Positions 3,877 through 37,742 of a stretch of 47,949 nt of DNA are shown here, piece by piece. The DNA is from Wohlfahrtiimonas populi (lineage in GTDB: Bacteria; Pseudomonadota; Gammaproteobacteria; Cardiobacteriales; Wohlfahrtiimonadaceae): NCBI RefSeq assembly GCF_002006795.1, contig NZ_MVDN01000002.1, forward strand, positions 221,267-269,215, in the 5' to 3' direction. Below the pieces are notes generated by a model that saw only the letters and a program-made list of their open reading frames with translations, made no database searches and was not told where the DNA came from. Numbering within the stretch: position 1 is the first letter of the stretch; the number at the start of each line of letters is the position of its first letter. The position numbers were made by a program, and so were the translations under genes.

Positions 3877-4188
3877 CTATACCGAACCTTCTTTTTCTAT
3901 GACTAAAATCCTTGCTTCACCTTGAGGATGTGCAACATGCTCTGTACCAACAGTCGCATGAAAAATATCACCCGCATTCAATAATACAATTTTAATAGCA
4001 TCATCATCTTTATAGTGCATTTCAACAATGCCATCTAATACAACAAAAACTTCTTCACCATCATTAATATGCCATTTATAGGGTTGGTCAGTCCAATGTA
4101 ATCTAACAGTTGTCCCTTCTAAATTTGCAATATCCAAAGCGCCCCAAGCGCGTTCCGCAGTGAAAGTTTTACCATTAATGATTTTCAT
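3877..4188 (-). CDS. Cupin-domain protein
   Basis: This is a small single-domain protein of 103 aa. The core contains the cupin pattern, with WHINDGEEVFVVLDG matching motif 1 (a His followed by a Glu that could hold a metal) and AGDIFHATVGTEHVAHP matching motif 2. Such stand-alone cupins may bind metals or small ligands, and nothing here identifies the ligand. It sits nine bases downstream of the GIY-YIG gene on the same strand, so it is probably the third gene of a CNNM, GIY-YIG, cupin transcript. Confidence 0.85.
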   Translation of the reverse strand: MKIINGKTFTAERAWGALDIANLEGTTVRLHWTDQPYKWHINDGEEVFVVLDGIVEMHYKDDDAIKIVLLNAGDIFHATVGTEHVAHPQGEARILVIEKEGSV

Positions 4189-4197
4189 TTTCTTGCC

Positions 4198-4479
4198 CTA
4201 TTCTTGATCTTTCACTTGTGACAAATATAACTCTTTTTGTTTTCGTGTTAATTGCTTAAAAGCATATTCTTGTTTCATGGCTTCGCTTTTAGTCGCAAAA
4301 CTTTCATGATGCAATAACAGCAAAGGCCTGCGTTTGGCAAGCCTTGTATATTTTGCGCCAATGCCATCATTATGCTCTTTTAAACGCCTTTCAACATCAA
4401 TTGTGTAACCAGCATAGAATGTATCATCATCGCATTGTAAAACGTAAAAACAATGTAGAACGTCGTCTGCATCAGTCAT
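4198..4479 (-). CDS. GIY-YIG nuclease-domain protein (UPF0213/YhbQ type)
   Basis: The 93-residue product is a minimal GIY-YIG fold. FYVLQCDDDTFYAGYT holds the two aromatic strands, in which GIY and YIG are replaced by FYV and YAG as is common in this subfamily. ERRLKEHN supplies the conserved Arg, and an AMKQEYAFK stretch supplies the Glu. Members of the YhbQ/UPF0213 group have been linked to DNA processing, but biochemical roles are poorly settled. Its ATG overlaps the stop of the upstream CNNM gene by one base (TAATG), which implies translational coupling. Confidence 0.9.
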   Translation of the reverse strand: MTDADDVLHCFYVLQCDDDTFYAGYTIDVERRLKEHNDGIGAKYTRLAKRRPLLLLHHESFATKSEAMKQEYAFKQLTRKQKELYLSQVKDQE

Positions 4480-29145: not shown

Positions 29146-29787
29146 TTATTTCTTCACAAACATCTCTTTCACAAAATCAACTTCGCCTGTTTCTACTTTA
29201 TAGAAAGCACCCACGATACCGATTTCGCCACTTTCATACATATCTTTTAAAACTGGGCTTTTTTCTAAAATATGGTCAATTGTGTATTCAACGTTATGGA
29301 AAGCCACCATATCCACTGCTTCTTTAGATTTAATATCCAAGTCCTTATGATTTGCTTTCACATGATCAATGGATGGCTGAATTTTCGCTAAAAGGTTCGT
29401 TAAATGTCCTAATTCCTTACAATGGCAAGCGCCTGTAATCGCACCACAATGAGAATGGCCTAAAACCATAATCAGTTTAGAACCTGCTAATTTACATGCA
29501 AATTCCATCGAGCCAATGATATCTTCATTCAAAACATTACCTGCGATACGCGCACTGAAAATATCACCCAAGCCTTGGTCAAAGATCAATTCAGCAGAGG
29601 TTCGACTATCAATACAGCTCAAAATGATCGCAAAAGGAAACTGCCCTTCTTTCGTTTCATTCACTTGTTCAAGCAAGTTGCTATGTGCTTTTAAGTTTGC
29701 CACAAAGCGTTTATTGCCTTCTTTCAAAAATGACAGCGCCAATTCTGGTGTTAAAGACTTCTGATCTTCGATGTTATGTAATCTCAT
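29146..29787 (-). CDS. Beta-class carbonic anhydrase
   Basis: This is a 213-aa cytosolic enzyme that hydrates CO2. The zinc ligands are C58 in LSCIDSRTSAE, and H111 and C114 in GHSHCGAI. The Asp60-Arg62 dyad is intact, and the GNVLNEDIIGSMEFA motif is present. It is somewhat short for clade B enzymes but complete. It is transcribed alone, downstream of the hsd locus on the same strand. Confidence 0.94.
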   Translation of the reverse strand: MRLHNIEDQKSLTPELALSFLKEGNKRFVANLKAHSNLLEQVNETKEGQFPFAIILSCIDSRTSAELIFDQGLGDIFSARIAGNVLNEDIIGSMEFACKLAGSKLIMVLGHSHCGAITGACHCKELGHLTNLLAKIQPSIDHVKANHKDLDIKSKEAVDMVAFHNVEYTIDHILEKSPVLKDMYESGEIGIVGAFYKVETGEVDFVKEMFVKK

Positions 29788-29872
29788 TGTTTAACTTCCA
29801 AATGATGGTAAAGAATTAGACAATTTACTCCGATTTTGCCAAAAATGGAGAGAATGAAAAATATTAATCCAA

Positions 29873-29890
29873 AAGCTGTATATACAGCTT
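29873..29890. repeat. Perfect 18-bp palindrome between the hsd locus and carbonic anhydrase
   Basis: AAGCTGTAT followed directly by ATACAGCTT. On the minus strand it is followed by only a short TTT, so it could be a weak terminator of the DUF6500 gene or an operator upstream of the carbonic anhydrase gene. Confidence 0.5.
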
Positions 29891-29911
29891 GACGAAATTA
29901 ACACTGATAAA

Positions 29912-30130
29912 TTACATATCATTTAAGATCAATTGCTTGATTTTAACGGCTTTCTCAAAGTGATCGAGCTTGTGTGTTTTGATCCACCAAGTGGCAGCTT
30001 CCATCAATAATTCAGGATCATCATTTTTGTTTTTAAAAAATGCATAGAAAGACAAACCAACATTGTCGCCTTTCTTTTCAATTTTCTCATCACAACCTGC
30101 GATGAATCGTTGTTTTAGTGAATCTCTCAT
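29912..30130 (-). CDS. DUF6500-like protein in the hsd locus
   Basis: The 72-aa product reads as a compact helical protein with the segments DSLKQRFIAGCDEKI, GDNVGLSFYAFFKNK and EAATWWIKTHKLDHFEKAVKI. I associate this pattern with DUF6500 from memory; a profile search should confirm it. It begins inside the hsdR stop (TAATG overlap) and is thus translationally coupled to it. That placement suggests an accessory role in restriction, but no function is known to me. Confidence 0.65.
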   Translation of the reverse strand: MRDSLKQRFIAGCDEKIEKKGDNVGLSFYAFFKNKNDDPELLMEAATWWIKTHKLDHFEKAVKIKQLILNDM

Positions 30131-33100
30131 TAATTTTTTACTCTCAATGGCAATATATCTTCCACGATCATTTGCGTATAAGCCTCTTTCACTGCTTTAT
30201 TGTATCTAAGCTTGCTCACAGGATTTTCAGTGCTGGATTTATATTGATCAAAATTGCTTGTTTTTCTTAAATCATCTTCACCAATTTGTGCTTCATCCAT
30301 TTTGCTTGGATTGTAGTTATCTACAATAAATCTTAACTCATCCTCTTGAACAGCCCATTTTTGTGCAAAATTTTTCACTAAATGATCAATCGTACTCGTG
30401 ATCATATCATTCAGTAATTCATTGATATTTTTACCACGATATGTATTAGGATTTTTTTGAATACCTTGCCACAATTGTGCCATTAATCCTGCAAGTTTTG
30501 CATTTTCTATGCGTAAACGATCAATATAATCTGTGACTTCTTGTGATTTCACACTGTTTTCAAATTGAAATTCTGCTGCTTTAGTTTCTAATGGCAAGAA
30601 GCGCTGAATCAAAGACAAAATATAGTGATAGTTAATTTCATCACTATGATGCGTTTGTAGATCATATTCAATATCTAACGGTTCAATTTCAGGATCATCA
30701 TTGGCAACTGCACGTAGCTCTTCTAGTACATTTTTATACTTGCCGTGATATTCCTCCATTTCATCATTCTGAATACCAAAAACTTCTTCGAGCATTTCAG
30801 GCTGATATTCATAATAACTCTTAATTGCAGTCATCGCTTTATCCAATTCTTGAAAAGCTTTGGCAAACATGCGCTTTTCTTCCACCAATAATTCATCAAT
30901 GACTTCAGAGGTTTCAGAAATATTCTTCAAGGCTGTGAATGCTTCTGCTAAATTTTCTGCGGCTTCCTCATAACTTGGTGCTAAGACATAATTTTCACCA
31001 CCATTGGAATATAAAAAAAGTGCGTCATTCACTGCTTCTGTAAATAATAATGGCGTTTGGAATGTTACGATCTGCCCAAATTTTTTGCCTTGGTCAAATA
31101 AGCGATTGGTGCGCGAAAATGCTTGAATGATATTGGGTGCACTCATTGGCGGACGATCAATAAACAATGTCGAAATACATGGTGCATCAAACCCCGTTAA
31201 TAATCGATCCACCACAATGATCAAATCAATTTGCTCTGCTCTACTCTGATAACGCTCACTTTTACGAGCCAAGCGAGCATTCACATTTTGATTATAAGCA
31301 CGCATGTTTTCCAATGAATAACTTGTGCCATACATCGCATTATAATCTGCTATGGATTCTGCCATTTTAGTTTGATTATCGATGGAGCTTTCTTCATTCT
31401 CTGAAATGGAATAAGTAATGGCAACTTTTGGGAAATCAGGTAGGATTGCTTTTGTGCGCTCACTCACTGTGACCGATTTATTACCCGCAATCACACTTTT
31501 AAATAGATCATAATATTCTTGTGCGATGGCAATAGTTGGCACAGTCAATATTGCACCATATGCTTTACCCACACCGCTTTCTGTTGTAAATCCAAGCTTA
31601 TTGCGCGACTGGTTGATAATAGAATCAATCACCTTTAAACGATGTTCTTTACTATCATAAACATCTTTAGGAATACATTTTTCTTTGTCGATTAATGATA
31701 GTCCTGCAATATTTTTAGTAGGATGATAATGACGAATGATGTCATCCATCATATCCTCTTGCAATGGGTTCTTATACTCAATTTGAAAGCCTAAAACTGC
31801 AGCATCATTGATGGCTTCTTTCACTGTATATTGATGCAAGCATGAACGATTTGGATTATCTTCTGTTGGACGATTTTGTGGGCTACTGTACATCATAGCC
31901 GTTGTTGTTGGCTTTTTTAATTCACCAAAAATTGGCGTGCCTGTAAAACCATACCACATTGCATAACGAAAAATTTGATCTAACTCTTTTTTCTTTTGTG
32001 GCGTAACAGCTCTATGGCATTCATCCACAATGAAGGCAACTTTCAGCTGTTTAATTTTTTCATACGTTTTAGTTAATCGTTCTGTCGCCTCTTCTGCCAT
32101 GCGTTTCATCAAGTGATTCAACTTTTGGATCGTTGTTACAATCACTGTACGATCATCACTCGCTAAACGCTTCACCAAATCATTCACATTGTCCGTTTCA
32201 TCAATGGAAATAGGATCAAACTCAGCATATGATGCAAATGAACTTGTGGTTTGCTGATCCAAATCCACACGATCCACAATGAAAATTGTTTTATCAATGG
32301 ATGGAATCTGCAATAAATTACAGGCAACTTTATAGGAAGTTAACGTTTTCCCCGATCCCGTTGTATGCCAAACAAAACCTGACGATTGATACTTGGAAGC
32401 TTCTTTCACTGCTTCTATCGCATGGATCTGATAAGGGCGCAATAATATAAGTGCTTCTTTATCTCGATCTGTGATGGAATATTGGGTTACCATTCTATGG
32501 GCTTGTGGAATGGACAGAACATCTTTCGCAAAGGCTAGATAATCCGTGACAGGTTGATTCTTTGCATCCACCCATTTACTTAAAAACTTCTCGTTTAAAT
32601 GTTTATGCCCGCTCGATGCAATATAACGTGTATCCGTTCCATTGCTTACCACAAACATCTGTGTGGATGAGAAAATGCCTTTGAATTTATCTTCTTTCAG
32701 GTATTTTTTAATCTGACGAAAACCATCCATATAAGGATGTTGGCGGTTCTTTAATTCCACGTGAATCATCGGCAAACCATTGATTAGCATTGTGACATCA
32801 AATCGTCTTTCTCTACTTTGTTCTTGTGAGCTTGTGAATTGATTAATTACCTGATAAACCGTTGTACCGCCTGCAATATCAGCACGATTGATTACATTTA
32901 AACGAATTGTACCCAAGCTTGCATCTTCTCTCTGTACTTGTACTTTGGCAATGCCATTTTCACCTGATAACCATTTGGCAGCTTCATAGAAATTTGGGAA
33001 AGTGAGCTGTGCTCTAACTTGGTTAAATTCTTGCGTTGTCAGCATTTTATCTTTCAACACTGCACGATTATTGCGCTCTAAAATAGTTTTGAGATTCGCC

Positions 33101-33213
33101 CATAAATCAGCTTCTGTACGTAAATCCTTACGGTAAATCCATTGAGATTCCCCAGAGATTAATTGATTAATCAAATCTTCTTCAAGTTTTGCTTCTTTCG
33201 TAAATTTAACCAC
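30130..33213 (-). CDS. hsdR: Type I restriction enzyme R subunit
   Basis: This is a 1027-aa motor-nuclease subunit. Residues 139-155 form the PD-(D/E)XK site (D139 in RRFDV, E153 and K155 in HVELKNR). The SF2 helicase motor includes Walker A TTGSGKT (284-290), DECH (397-400), GFTGTPIF (about 420) and a later RLLTGFDAPCI motif. The C-terminal region is the usual helical part that contacts the methylase. The start is GTG with AAGGTGAG upstream. Together with HsdM and HsdS it cleaves DNA unmethylated at the target site after translocation. The frame is complete. Confidence 0.96.
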   Translation of the reverse strand: MVKFTKEAKLEEDLINQLISGESQWIYRKDLRTEADLWANLKTILERNNRAVLKDKMLTTQEFNQVRAQLTFPNFYEAAKWLSGENGIAKVQVQREDASLGTIRLNVINRADIAGGTTVYQVINQFTSSQEQSRERRFDVTMLINGLPMIHVELKNRQHPYMDGFRQIKKYLKEDKFKGIFSSTQMFVVSNGTDTRYIASSGHKHLNEKFLSKWVDAKNQPVTDYLAFAKDVLSIPQAHRMVTQYSITDRDKEALILLRPYQIHAIEAVKEASKYQSSGFVWHTTGSGKTLTSYKVACNLLQIPSIDKTIFIVDRVDLDQQTTSSFASYAEFDPISIDETDNVNDLVKRLASDDRTVIVTTIQKLNHLMKRMAEEATERLTKTYEKIKQLKVAFIVDECHRAVTPQKKKELDQIFRYAMWYGFTGTPIFGELKKPTTTAMMYSSPQNRPTEDNPNRSCLHQYTVKEAINDAAVLGFQIEYKNPLQEDMMDDIIRHYHPTKNIAGLSLIDKEKCIPKDVYDSKEHRLKVIDSIINQSRNKLGFTTESGVGKAYGAILTVPTIAIAQEYYDLFKSVIAGNKSVTVSERTKAILPDFPKVAITYSISENEESSIDNQTKMAESIADYNAMYGTSYSLENMRAYNQNVNARLARKSERYQSRAEQIDLIIVVDRLLTGFDAPCISTLFIDRPPMSAPNIIQAFSRTNRLFDQGKKFGQIVTFQTPLLFTEAVNDALFLYSNGGENYVLAPSYEEAAENLAEAFTALKNISETSEVIDELLVEEKRMFAKAFQELDKAMTAIKSYYEYQPEMLEEVFGIQNDEMEEYHGKYKNVLEELRAVANDDPEIEPLDIEYDLQTHHSDEINYHYILSLIQRFLPLETKAAEFQFENSVKSQEVTDYIDRLRIENAKLAGLMAQLWQGIQKNPNTYRGKNINELLNDMITSTIDHLVKNFAQKWAVQEDELRFIVDNYNPSKMDEAQIGEDDLRKTSNFDQYKSSTENPVSKLRYNKAVKEAYTQMIVEDILPLRVKN

Positions 33214-33229
33214 AACTCACCTTTTAATA

Positions 33230-33697
33230 TTAATAATGTGATCTATTATCTGCGTTTGCAAAAATTGTTAACATAAACATTATGGCAAAATAACACGCAA
33301 CTAAAATCACTCCGAAATACGCAATAATAGAAAGAAGAGTAAACTGAACTAATGTACCAAAAAATCCATAAATCCAATTTGTCACAACAAAATTATATAT
33401 CGCGACACCTAAATAAATTAAAAGTGCAATAATAACCAATACAATGCCATTTAAGGTTTCTGAGGTAAATATCACACCAAGCAATTCGTATCCTTTAGCA
33501 TTCACAACGGCAGAGTTATACCAACTTACACCCCATATAAATAGAGCGCCTGCGATGCCAAGAATAATCAACATTGGTTTTGTAAAAAATGCATGATCAA
33601 ATTTATCTTCACAATGTTCATTGAAAAACATAATAATACCTGTCAAAACCACCAATGCCACAATGATTCCGACAACAATCAATACTGTCACTTCCAT
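33230..33697 (-). CDS. Small polytopic membrane protein in the hsd locus
   Basis: The 155-aa product has four or five hydrophobic segments: VTVLIVVGIIVALVVLTGIIMF, MLIILGIAGALFIWGV, LNGIVLVIIALLIYLGVAIYNF, FGTLVQFTLLSIIAYFGVILV and a C-terminal helix. I recognise no named domain. It lies 16 bp before hsdR and has an AAGGAG site. A degraded relative lies immediately upstream (33742-33911). Its position in a defence operon suggests a membrane-linked accessory function, but this is inference. Confidence 0.7.
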   Translation of the reverse strand: MEVTVLIVVGIIVALVVLTGIIMFFNEHCEDKFDHAFFTKPMLIILGIAGALFIWGVSWYNSAVVNAKGYELLGVIFTSETLNGIVLVIIALLIYLGVAIYNFVVTNWIYGFFGTLVQFTLLSIIAYFGVILVACYFAIMFMLTIFANADNRSHY

Positions 33698-33741
33698 ACT
33701 CCTTTATATTTTCTATTTTAGATATACATTATTTTAATATT

Positions 33742-33911
33742 TTACAAACTAACTAGAACGATTGTGCCAACTAAACTATTAATCTAATTGGTTCTAATAT
33801 AATTGAAAACTGCAATGCCCAGATACATAAGGATATAAGATATAAGATATAAGATATAAGATATAATCCAATCAAACCGATAATTGCGGTAATAATTGTT
33901 AACATAACCAT
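33742..33911 (-). pseudogene. Decayed paralogue of the adjacent membrane protein
   Basis: Read on the minus strand, this region encodes MVMLTIITAIIGLIGLYLI and, in another frame after the heptamer repeats, MYLGIAVFNYIRTN, then a TAG, then INSLVGTIVLVSL. The second part aligns with IYLGVAIYNFVVTNWIYGFFGTLV of the intact 155-aa protein, with the TGG codon of its Trp corresponding to the TAG. The first part also shares TTATGTTAACAATT with the 3' end of the intact gene. A frame shift across the GATATAA repeats and a nonsense codon make it a relic; a short frame of 46 codons (33771-33911) remains open. Confidence 0.6.
33832..33866. repeat. Five tandem GATATAA heptamers
   Basis: Five exact head-to-tail copies of a 7-base unit, written on the plus strand. 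The unit length is not a multiple of three, so slippage changes the reading frame through it. Adding one unit or losing two would join the two reading frames of the surrounding relic. It also lies 134 bp upstream of the intact membrane protein gene. Confidence 0.95.
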
Positions 33912-33960
33912 TTAATTATTTTCCTACAAAATATCAGGTGCGTATCCACATAACTTATTT

Positions 33961-34881
33961 TTATCCAAGGTTTTGTTTAATAACACTTAAGATATATTCC
34001 AAGTGCTCAGTATCTTTTAGTGAAACCTCGTAATCACCATTCCCCCAATGTCCTTTAGAACTCATATCACGAAAAAGTCCTTTAGGATCATCTAATGTTC
34101 CCCAAGCAGCATTGATATACAGAATCAAAGATCCTTTTAACATTACAATATCAACAACATTACTTTTATTTTTTTTAAAAGCTGCGTACTGCTTGGTATA
34201 TATCAAATCTATTTGATCATCTAAATTCAAAATAGCTTGTTTAAATCTCTCATAAAGCTCTATCGTTTTTTCAGAGCCTAATCGAAAAAATGTGTCCTCA
34301 TCATAAATGATAATTTCTTTAGTAATATTAGCCACAACATTGATTTCGTTATCAGCAATATTAGAATGAGTGAGAGTAGGCGCATGTTTTGATCGTTCAA
34401 TAAAATTCACGGTCAATAAATCTTTTTCATATCTCTTGAATTCAACCAATTCGATACCTAAATTTTTAAAATTTGTTGAGTTTTTTTGATAATCATTGAA
34501 TGAATTTGCTACGAATAAGATTCGAGTCTGACTCCAATCAACATCGTTGCGCTTTAATGTTTTTCCTAAACTTTGTTCATTATATTCAAGAATTAAACTA
34601 TCTTTGTAATCTAGCATAGCATTCAGATAAGAAACGCCCTGATCTACAACGCTTTGGCTACGATCTCGTTTATACTCAATAACAACAAAAGCTTTTCTCT
34701 CATTATCAAATGCTAAAGTATCAAACCTAAATTGCTTCAAAGTAAACTCAGATTTTACAAGAGTTAATCCTGTTAATATCGTTAAATTCTCTTCAAATAA
34801 CTTTTGCATATCTTTTTCAAGCTTAAATGGCTGTTCTTTAATTAGATTTAAACTCTGAGCATTAATTTTATAAATATCCAT
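33961..34881 (-). CDS. PD-(D/E)XK nuclease-like protein with DUF5655-type C-terminus
   Basis: The product has 306 aa. The N-terminal half has the arrangement of a NucS/RecB-like nuclease: D54 in FRFDTLAFD, then E69 and K71 in VVIEYKRD, and a downstream QGVSYLNAML helix. The C-terminal part (about 200-306) with GSEKTIELYERFKQAIL and a terminal HLEYILSVIKQNL helix resembles DUF5655. I chose the ATG at 34881, with AAGGA upstream, over the longer frame. It starts ten bp after hsdS and is the gene most likely to add a second nuclease activity to the restriction system. Confidence 0.8.
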   Translation of the reverse strand: MDIYKINAQSLNLIKEQPFKLEKDMQKLFEENLTILTGLTLVKSEFTLKQFRFDTLAFDNERKAFVVIEYKRDRSQSVVDQGVSYLNAMLDYKDSLILEYNEQSLGKTLKRNDVDWSQTRILFVANSFNDYQKNSTNFKNLGIELVEFKRYEKDLLTVNFIERSKHAPTLTHSNIADNEINVVANITKEIIIYDEDTFFRLGSEKTIELYERFKQAILNLDDQIDLIYTKQYAAFKKNKSNVVDIVMLKGSLILYINAAWGTLDDPKGLFRDMSSKGHWGNGDYEVSLKDTEHLEYILSVIKQNLG

Positions 34882-34891
34882 ATTAATCCTT

Positions 34892-36142
34892 CTATACAAA
34901 AATTCTTTGTAACATTGCTTTCTTCAATTGCTGATAGTTTTCTAACTTCTTCTCATGCTGCTCAATTTGCTTATCTAATTTCTGAAAAAACTCCCCAATC
35001 TTCTGCTGTTCTTCCAATGCAGGAAAATATAAAGTTAAACTTGCAAGATCATTTAAATAAACTCCTGATTGTGCTGATGTTGAAGCTGAACGCATTAATT
35101 GCCTAGAGATACTATTTGTATCCATAGAGCATAATAAAAATGTAGGATTAATGCTGTCATTACAGCGAATAATAGCTACAGATCTTTGAAAAGCTATTTT
35201 ATTTTCAGAACCTTGATATAAAGCAGATTCTCCAATTGTTCCAACTATAGTAAAAAGTAAATCGTTAATTTTTATCGAATAATTTTTATAAATCAGTTCA
35301 TAATCTTTTTGTGAAATTTGCCTATCTTTATTTTTATCCAATACAACTTTTTTATTTTTAATATTTTTTGCACTTAACAAATATGCGCCTACACCATCAG
35401 CATGACTTCCATGCGTACCATCTTTCAATAAAACAACTATATCTTTAAGTTTTTTCTCTTCCCAATCCCCACTAAATCCATCAAAGCGCACTTTTGGCAT
35501 TTTCTCGCCTTTTTGTGGGAACATCTTTTGCAACATAGATTTTTTATAATCTTGCGCTGTTTCGAGTGCTTTTTGTTGCAACTCGATCACTTGGTCGATT
35601 TTTTGGAAAAAATCCCCAATTTTGGTTTGTTCTTTGAATTCAGGTATATCAATTGGCATTTTTTGGAAAGTTGCCATACCAATAGCAAAACGATCTGATC
35701 TTGCACCTTGATCACCATGCGTAAACATAAACTTATGCCAATTAGTTGTAGAAAAATAATGTTCTAAAAAGTCAAAGTTAATAATAGTTTGATTAGGGCG
35801 AAAAACAGAATATAACGGAGACATAACACCTGATCGTCCTAATTTATTACGTTTAATTGGTCCAACAGGAGCAAAATTTGATATTCTTGGGTTATATACA
35901 AAATCATCAGGCTGAACCACATAATAATTATCTAAATTTGCCTCATTAGAAATATCTTTATCAAAAAAATCTCTTTGACTAATAATTCCTCGCTCCGCAG
36001 AATTTGTAAATGTTTCAGTCACCTGATTATTCTTATTTTTTTCTTGTACACGAAAAGAAATTTCACTTAATTTCTTCTTTTGCCAAATATCAGAGAATCC
36101 AGCAAAGCGGAGCTTTGGGATATGGGATTCTATTTTAGCCAT
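34892..36142 (-). CDS. hsdS: Type I restriction specificity subunit
   Basis: The 416-aa subunit has two target recognition domains (about 10-175 and 225-370), each followed by a conserved helix: TKIGDFFQKIDQVIELQQKAL with KSMLQKMFPQK, and QQKIGEFFQKLDKQIEQHEKK with KAMLQRIFV. The paired helices set the spacing of the bipartite DNA site. I start it at ATG 36142, which has AAGGTG upstream and overlaps the hsdM stop by eight bases. The upstream open frame to 36229 is inside hsdM. The actual recognition sequence cannot be read from the protein. Confidence 0.95.
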   Translation of the reverse strand: MAKIESHIPKLRFAGFSDIWQKKKLSEISFRVQEKNKNNQVTETFTNSAERGIISQRDFFDKDISNEANLDNYYVVQPDDFVYNPRISNFAPVGPIKRNKLGRSGVMSPLYSVFRPNQTIINFDFLEHYFSTTNWHKFMFTHGDQGARSDRFAIGMATFQKMPIDIPEFKEQTKIGDFFQKIDQVIELQQKALETAQDYKKSMLQKMFPQKGEKMPKVRFDGFSGDWEEKKLKDIVVLLKDGTHGSHADGVGAYLLSAKNIKNKKVVLDKNKDRQISQKDYELIYKNYSIKINDLLFTIVGTIGESALYQGSENKIAFQRSVAIIRCNDSINPTFLLCSMDTNSISRQLMRSASTSAQSGVYLNDLASLTLYFPALEEQQKIGEFFQKLDKQIEQHEKKLENYQQLKKAMLQRIFV

Positions 36143-37742
36143 TGTGATCACCTTTAAGCATTGCTTTAAAGGCTTCGAGTTCATTGTTGGCTTTGTCCGT
36201 TGTACCAACCAATTCGCTAAGCATTGCAAACAACTCTTGTTCTGCTGTTTTCAACTCTGCATTAATGCTGATCATATTCGCTGAAATATCCGCCAAAGGA
36301 ATTTCAGGTTCAGCTTCAAATGTATCAACATAGCGCGGAATATTGAGGTTAAACTCATTTTCCTCAATCTCTTCAAAGCTCGCCACATAGCTATATTTAT
36401 CAATCGTTTTACGATGAATGTATGTATCCAAAATCTTCGCGATATTTTCTTCTGTCAAAATGTTCTGTGTGCGAACTTTCTCAAACTCACTAGAAGCATC
36501 AATAAAAAGCACATCTCGCTTGTCATGATTCTTTTTCAACACAATGATCGTTGTTGGGATGGATGTATTGAAGAAAATATTAGAAGGTAAACCAATCACC
36601 GCATGAATGTGCCCATTTTCCAAAAGCGTTTTACGAATTTTCTCTTCTGCACCGCCACGAAATAGAACACCATGCGGTAAAACAATCGCCATTGTGCCGT
36701 TGGATTTTAAATGATAAAAACCATGTAACAAAAATGCAAAGTCCGCTTTGGACTTCGGAGCCAACACGCCATAAGGTGAAAAACGTACATCATCCAAAAA
36801 GCCCTTTGCTGCACTCCAATCCGCTGAATATGGCGGATTCATTAAAACACCATCAAAGTTTGTTGGCTCTTCTGTTGGCCAGTCATCATCCAATGTATCC
36901 GCATTATTGAGATATTGATTCGCGATCGGCACACCATGCAACATTAAATTCATGCGCGCTAAATTATAAGTAGATGTATTGATCTCTTGCCCAAAATAGA
37001 GAACAGTATTGGGCTCTTTTGTTTCTTTTTTAATGTTCAACATTAATGATCCTGAGCCCATTGTTGGATCATACACGCTGAAGCCTTTCTGGTCTTTCTT
37101 ACCATGAATCACGATTTTGGTCATCAATTCTGCAACAGGCTGTGGTGTATAGAACTCACCTGCTTTTTTACCTGAATCTGATGCAAACTGCCCAATCATA
37201 TATTCATAAGCATCGCCCAAAATATCACCAGAATGACCTGCAAAATCTATCTCCGCCAATTCTTTCATAATGCCTGAAATGGTTTCATTCTGCTTTTGTG
37301 GCGTTGATCCAAGCTTACGAGAATAGAGATCAATATCTTGGAACAAATTCGCAAATGCATCCGATGATTGCTCTATGTTACGAAAACCCTGCTGTAAACT
37401 TTCTAATTGAAAAGATTGGCTGTGCACTTCATTGATCAAATGCGTGAATGTATATTCAGGTTCGATTACATAGGAAAACTCATCTTTTAAGGCATCTTTT
37501 AAATCTTCATGAATCTCGGGATCATGATAAGCCTTAGCATAAATATCCTGTGCATCTTTCAAAGTATCAGCTTTCTCTTCTAACTGATCCACCGCATAAT
37601 GGAGCATTTTGTCAGAGAGATATTTATAAAAAATAATACCCAATAAATAGTTTTTATATTCGTTGGCATCCATTTTAGAACGCAAAATATCTGCCGAAGC
37701 CCAAAGTGCGCTGTATAAAGATTTAGAGTTTTGCTCTGACAT
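36135..37742 (-). CDS. hsdM: Type I restriction DNA adenine methyltransferase subunit
   Basis: This is a 535-aa N6-adenine methylase. Motif I is DPTMGSGSL (225-233), and the catalytic NPPY motif is at residues 302-305. An N-terminal helical HsdM_N domain (about 8-145) precedes the core, and GEFYTPQPVAELM matches the conserved linker. It methylates the site chosen by HsdS and protects host DNA. A 9-base inverted repeat lies directly before its ATG and may affect expression. It is the first gene of the hsd locus. Confidence 0.97.
   Translation of the reverse strand: MSEQNSKSLYSALWASADILRSKMDANEYKNYLLGIIFYKYLSDKMLHYAVDQLEEKADTLKDAQDIYAKAYHDPEIHEDLKDALKDEFSYVIEPEYTFTHLINEVHSQSFQLESLQQGFRNIEQSSDAFANLFQDIDLYSRKLGSTPQKQNETISGIMKELAEIDFAGHSGDILGDAYEYMIGQFASDSGKKAGEFYTPQPVAELMTKIVIHGKKDQKGFSVYDPTMGSGSLMLNIKKETKEPNTVLYFGQEINTSTYNLARMNLMLHGVPIANQYLNNADTLDDDWPTEEPTNFDGVLMNPPYSADWSAAKGFLDDVRFSPYGVLAPKSKADFAFLLHGFYHLKSNGTMAIVLPHGVLFRGGAEEKIRKTLLENGHIHAVIGLPSNIFFNTSIPTTIIVLKKNHDKRDVLFIDASSEFEKVRTQNILTEENIAKILDTYIHRKTIDKYSYVASFEEIEENEFNLNIPRYVDTFEAEPEIPLADISANMISINAELKTAEQELFAMLSELVGTTDKANNELEAFKAMLKGDHNG

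Follow-up and report, generated by a model that had tools for sequence, protein, structure and literature searches.

A GATATAA heptamer tract in a type I restriction-modification operon of Wohlfahrtiimonas populi is probably a slippage product in an apparent pseudogene

The closest described systems are repeat tracts of Haemophilus influenzae. The heptanucleotide tracts upstream of hmw1A and hmw2A comprise 13-38 copies, vary in number between strains, and are reported to lie within the promoters and alter expression (Dawid et al. 1999, cited in PMC2651432). Tetra-, penta- and heptanucleotide tracts within H. influenzae coding regions cause phase variation by frameshifting, including in restriction-modification genes (PMC2651432). 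Our literature searches found no paper on phase variation in Wohlfahrtiimonas and nothing useful on tandem repeats at deletion junctions. The tract considered here lies in a 47,949-nucleotide stretch of a W. populi contig (the window). It resembles the hmw tracts in being a perfect 7-base tandem roughly 100 bp upstream of a gene for which it is non-coding, and differs from them in having five copies, in sitting within a pseudogene and in showing no promoter-like site. As in the coding-region repeats, tract length decides which frame continues. In those genes, however, one state is full-length, whereas no state in the window is, and the window tract lies outside hsdM, hsdS and hsdR.

The repeat consists of five perfect GATATAA units that the minus (coding) strand reads as TTATATC. 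It is the top-scoring tandem array of the window and, in 297,492 bases of the contig, the sole perfect tandem with a unit of 5-12 bases and at least three copies; the second-best perfect tandem on the contig is a tetramer of four copies. No heptamer with at least three perfect copies appears among the five highest maxima from 40 Markov-simulated windows, and at least three consecutive GATATAA units occur in only one place in the 2.78-Mb assembly. The tract is a real and rare feature. Viral contigs were also scanned for three GATATAA units, and the four that matched are presumed to do so by chance.

The tract is embedded in a minus-strand operon for type I restriction-modification with the gene order hsdM, hsdS, DUF5655 gene, memA relic, memB, hsdR (Table 1). 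The sole relative found to carry the locus is W. larvae kbl006 (NZ_MVDO01000087.1), so that the locus comparison is with one relative and its counts are small. The genomes searched, one per species, include no second isolate that carries the tract. Its operon is ordered hsdM, hsdS, Mrr-like gene, memA, memB, hsdR, where the label Mrr-like was judged from the sequence, outside any family search.

Table 1. Coordinates of features in and around the heptamer tract (window numbering)
Feature	Coordinates	Strand	Remarks
hsdM, type I methyltransferase subunit	36135..37742	-	
hsdS, type I specificity subunit	34892..36229	-	single copy in genome
DUF5655-domain protein	33961..34899	-	weak similarity to NucS/HSDR_N nuclease domains; PADLOC candidate PDC-S18
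5' block of memA relic	33861..33911	-	ATG + 16 codons, MVMLTIITAIIGLIGLY; W. larvae memA, MTMLTIIIAIISLIGLW; overlaps first TTATAT of tract
(TTATATC)x5 = (GATATAA)x5 tandem tract	33832..33866	-	sits at junction of memA deletion 1
3' block of memA relic	33754..33828	-	MYLGIAVFNYIRTN*INSLVGTIVL; W. larvae, IYLAIAIYNFVKTNWVYGLIGTIVQ
68-bp block identical in W. larvae	33687..33754	-	memA-memB spacer, AGGAG, memB start; begins directly past memA deletion 2
memB, small hydrophobic membrane protein	33230..33697	-	possible GTG start at 33691
hsdR, type I restriction subunit	30130..33213	-	16 bp past memB

Several other differences between the two operons lie outside the tract. Within the second half of hsdS, one segment (35014-35460) has no alignment with W. 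larvae at the DNA level, while most of the remaining gene is about 85-89% identical; this is the pattern expected if a target-recognition domain was swapped. No second hsdS that could act as a shuffling partner was found in the genome. Runs of 64-89 identical bases, in an alignment that is 88% identical as a whole, cluster at 29735-30423, across the end of hsdR, a DUF6500 gene and a gene for a 213-aa protein (29146-29787), and this clustering possibly reflects recent exchange. Between hsdS and the membrane-protein genes, the window has the DUF5655 (PDC-S18) gene where W. larvae has the Mrr-like gene, and the flanks of this slot are about 88% identical. Neither a remnant of the Mrr-like gene ahead of the relic nor one of the DUF5655 gene in the W. 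larvae gap could be recognised, as the candidate alignments scored at the level of shuffled sequences. Homologues of the DUF5655 protein (72%), the Mrr-like protein (43%) and the membrane protein (42%) stand close together in a different genus of this family (G010: L022, 8606-10213 and 6907-7359; also L021). A 300-aa gene stands between the cargo homologues there, and the stretch that was read holds no homologues of the hsd genes of the window. The DUF5655, Mrr-like and membrane-protein cargo may constitute an independent unit.

The sequence-only reading had proposed that two frames of a relic gene are joined by the tract, and this relic can now be identified as memA, which W. larvae retains intact (about 155 codons) at the same operon position. 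The 5' block shares 36 of 51 bases with the first 17 memA codons, a local alignment that beats shuffled sequences, and the 3' block shares 58 of 75 bases with a later part of the gene (score 66, compared with a shuffle maximum of 30). Both blocks align to W. larvae memA in the correct order. Between them, 225 bp of W. larvae (3907-4131) are absent from the window, where 32 bases (33829-33860) that are mostly tract stand instead. A second deletion, of about 133 bp (4207-4339 in W. larvae), follows the 3' block, which also contains a Trp codon changed to a stop (TGG to TAG, 33786-33784). What remains of memA amounts to about 42 of some 155 codons. With its deletions and stops, and with a syntenic intact orthologue in a relative, the relic is a pseudogene of the memA/memB family. 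Decay in the window lineage, as opposed to gain in W. larvae, is suggested by the one locus comparison together with the stop codon and by the homology to memB.

In W. larvae, memA and memB stand in the same operon position between the same flanking hsd genes; the differences are that memA is intact, that there is no tandem tract and that the Mrr-like gene replaces the DUF5655 gene. Window memB shares 92% identity with its W. larvae counterpart and 48% with W. larvae memA. The genes memA and memB are paralogues, and the relic is the dead tandem copy, memA. Within Ignatzschineriaceae, the family of the window, 7 of 18 genomes encode memB homologues, compared with none of the 14 other genomes in the order. 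The protein has no match above the cut-off in Pfam, NCBIfam or PADLOC, and no plasmid relatives were found for either memB or the relic. The ATG of memB at 33697 is 134 bp from the tract, as the sequence-only reading had it, and the distance becomes 140 bp if translation begins at GTG 33691. The GTG is suggested as the start because a Shine-Dalgarno-like AGGAG lies 7 nt before it and only one base before the ATG, and because memB homologues in another genus begin with MTVLI.

As at contingency loci, the perfect heptamer tract has a unit that is not a multiple of three and lies inside an ORF, which starts at 33911. The earlier arithmetic, by which gain of one unit or loss of two restores continuity up to the TAG, is correct: with three or six copies, ATG 33911 runs into MYLGIAVFNYIRTN and ends at that stop. 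The ORF is 37 aa long with three copies, 36 aa with four, 46 aa with the current five and 44 aa with six, and copy numbers 1-11 give 29-60 aa, far from the full length of W. larvae memA. The stops of the three frames (33796-33794, 33786-33784 and 33773-33771) all fall within 26 nt. Because the products span only 36-46 aa and the stops lie so close together, a change of frame is predicted to restore no full protein and barely to shift where ribosomes leave the message. The peptides of all states from three to six copies are hydrophobic, the four-copy form less so at its end.

Differences from W. larvae bear on whether any of this sequence is under coding constraint. Their distribution over the three codon positions is 10:4:43 in memB, 2:3:10 in the 5' block and 6:6:5 in the 3' block. 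The pattern of the 3' block departs from that of memB (Fisher p = 0.001), and the two relic blocks differ less clearly from each other (p = 0.07). Although the numbers are small, differences past the tract are spread evenly, which suggests that the 3' block has no coding constraint and that the joining of frames bears no sign of selection. The 5' block, with 15 differences, looks constrained; either its divergence preceded the decay or the short ORF is still used.

The same reading had also suggested that tract length tunes a promoter for memB, and nothing positive was found for this. A consensus scan, which can miss promoters, detects no sigma-70-like site on the memB strand in 33692-33960, and the leader RNA is predicted to fold no better than shuffled sequences (z = +0.66). 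A 68-bp run upstream of memB is identical in W. larvae, and about 78 bp separate its start from the tract, which lies farther upstream. We rejected this run as proof of a promoter, given that three other identical runs are longer (78-89 bp), and regard it as weak evidence for one.

The account that best fits these observations, to which we assign a probability of about 0.8, is that slipped-strand expansion produced the tract at a deletion scar in a pseudogene and that the tract is not a switch. The ancestral operon would have carried tandem paralogues memA and memB ahead of hsdR, an arrangement that W. larvae retains. In the window lineage, memA would have undergone an internal deletion of about 225 bp and another of about 133 bp at the 3' end, and acquired the Trp-to-TAG stop. 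The internal deletion may have left an A+T-rich junction with one TTATATC beside similar sequence (CTTATGTATC), at which the unit could have slipped up to five copies. We infer both the order of deletion and expansion and slippage as the cause. Copy number may vary today. None of the copy states would switch a full protein, as each encodes a short hydrophobic peptide and no more, and expression of memB and hsdR would most likely be independent of copy number. Three considerations weigh against this pseudogene account. The rarity of perfect heptamer tracts could mean that this one is maintained, the coding-like 5' block (2:3:10) may belong to a short ORF that is still translated, and the tract separates the modification genes from memB and hsdR, where tuning by length would make sense.

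The last consideration corresponds to a promoter- or leader-tuning repeat, in which copy number would set the transcription of memB and hsdR and thereby shift the ratio of restriction to modification, as in the hmw system. The tract is perfect and rare, hsdR follows memB closely, and the distance of 134-140 bp to memB is comparable to the 69-106 bp given for the hmw tracts in PMC2651432. We nevertheless consider such a role unlikely. The strand of memB lacks a promoter-like site in or near the tract, five units (35 bp) exceed the room between a -35 and a -10 element, the copy number falls well short of the hmw range, and the run identical with the tractless W. larvae starts some 78 bp farther downstream. 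It is a little less probable again that a tract born of decay was later co-opted as a length-variable leader, tuning memB-hsdR against hsdM-hsdS within one operon. Were leader tuning true, a population would vary in restriction strength while its modification stayed constant.

Two further possibilities place the function in the relic peptide itself, and both are very improbable. The tract might act as a phase-variable frame switch for a shortened membrane peptide, where one unit more or two fewer would fuse the blocks (44 or 37 aa) and give a distinct C-terminus. The frame arithmetic holds, a Shine-Dalgarno-like AGGA precedes the ATG and the 5' block looks coding; against this, the 3' block lacks constraint, all states are short hydrophobic peptides of similar length, and every one of them has lost some three quarters of the ancestral protein. 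The sequence-only claim of a slipped-strand switch is left unsupported, with a frame-joined product of 37-44 aa out of about 155, an unconstrained 3' block and a tract at a deletion scar. Just as doubtful is the idea that the relic ORF encodes a novel small membrane protein, which the tract lengthens or shortens by seven mostly hydrophobic residues per three units. Whatever the copy number, the ORF remains hydrophobic across the tract, and its 5' block has a pattern resembling that of memB, but there are only 15 differences, the same 2:3:10 is expected if most divergence predates the decay, and no second example of the shortened ORF was found. Least credible of all is a copy number created by assembly or sequencing error. 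The assembly is a draft of 74 contigs, yet reads are usually longer than 35 bp, and the assembly contains the region only once.

If the tract is indeed a by-product of slippage in a pseudogene, then not every heptamer tract found in a restriction locus is a switch, and here a single relative allows the tract to be traced to a deletion scar in a dead paralogue. If copy number instead proved to vary and to change hsdR expression, the locus would illustrate gene decay as a route to a restriction-tuning element.
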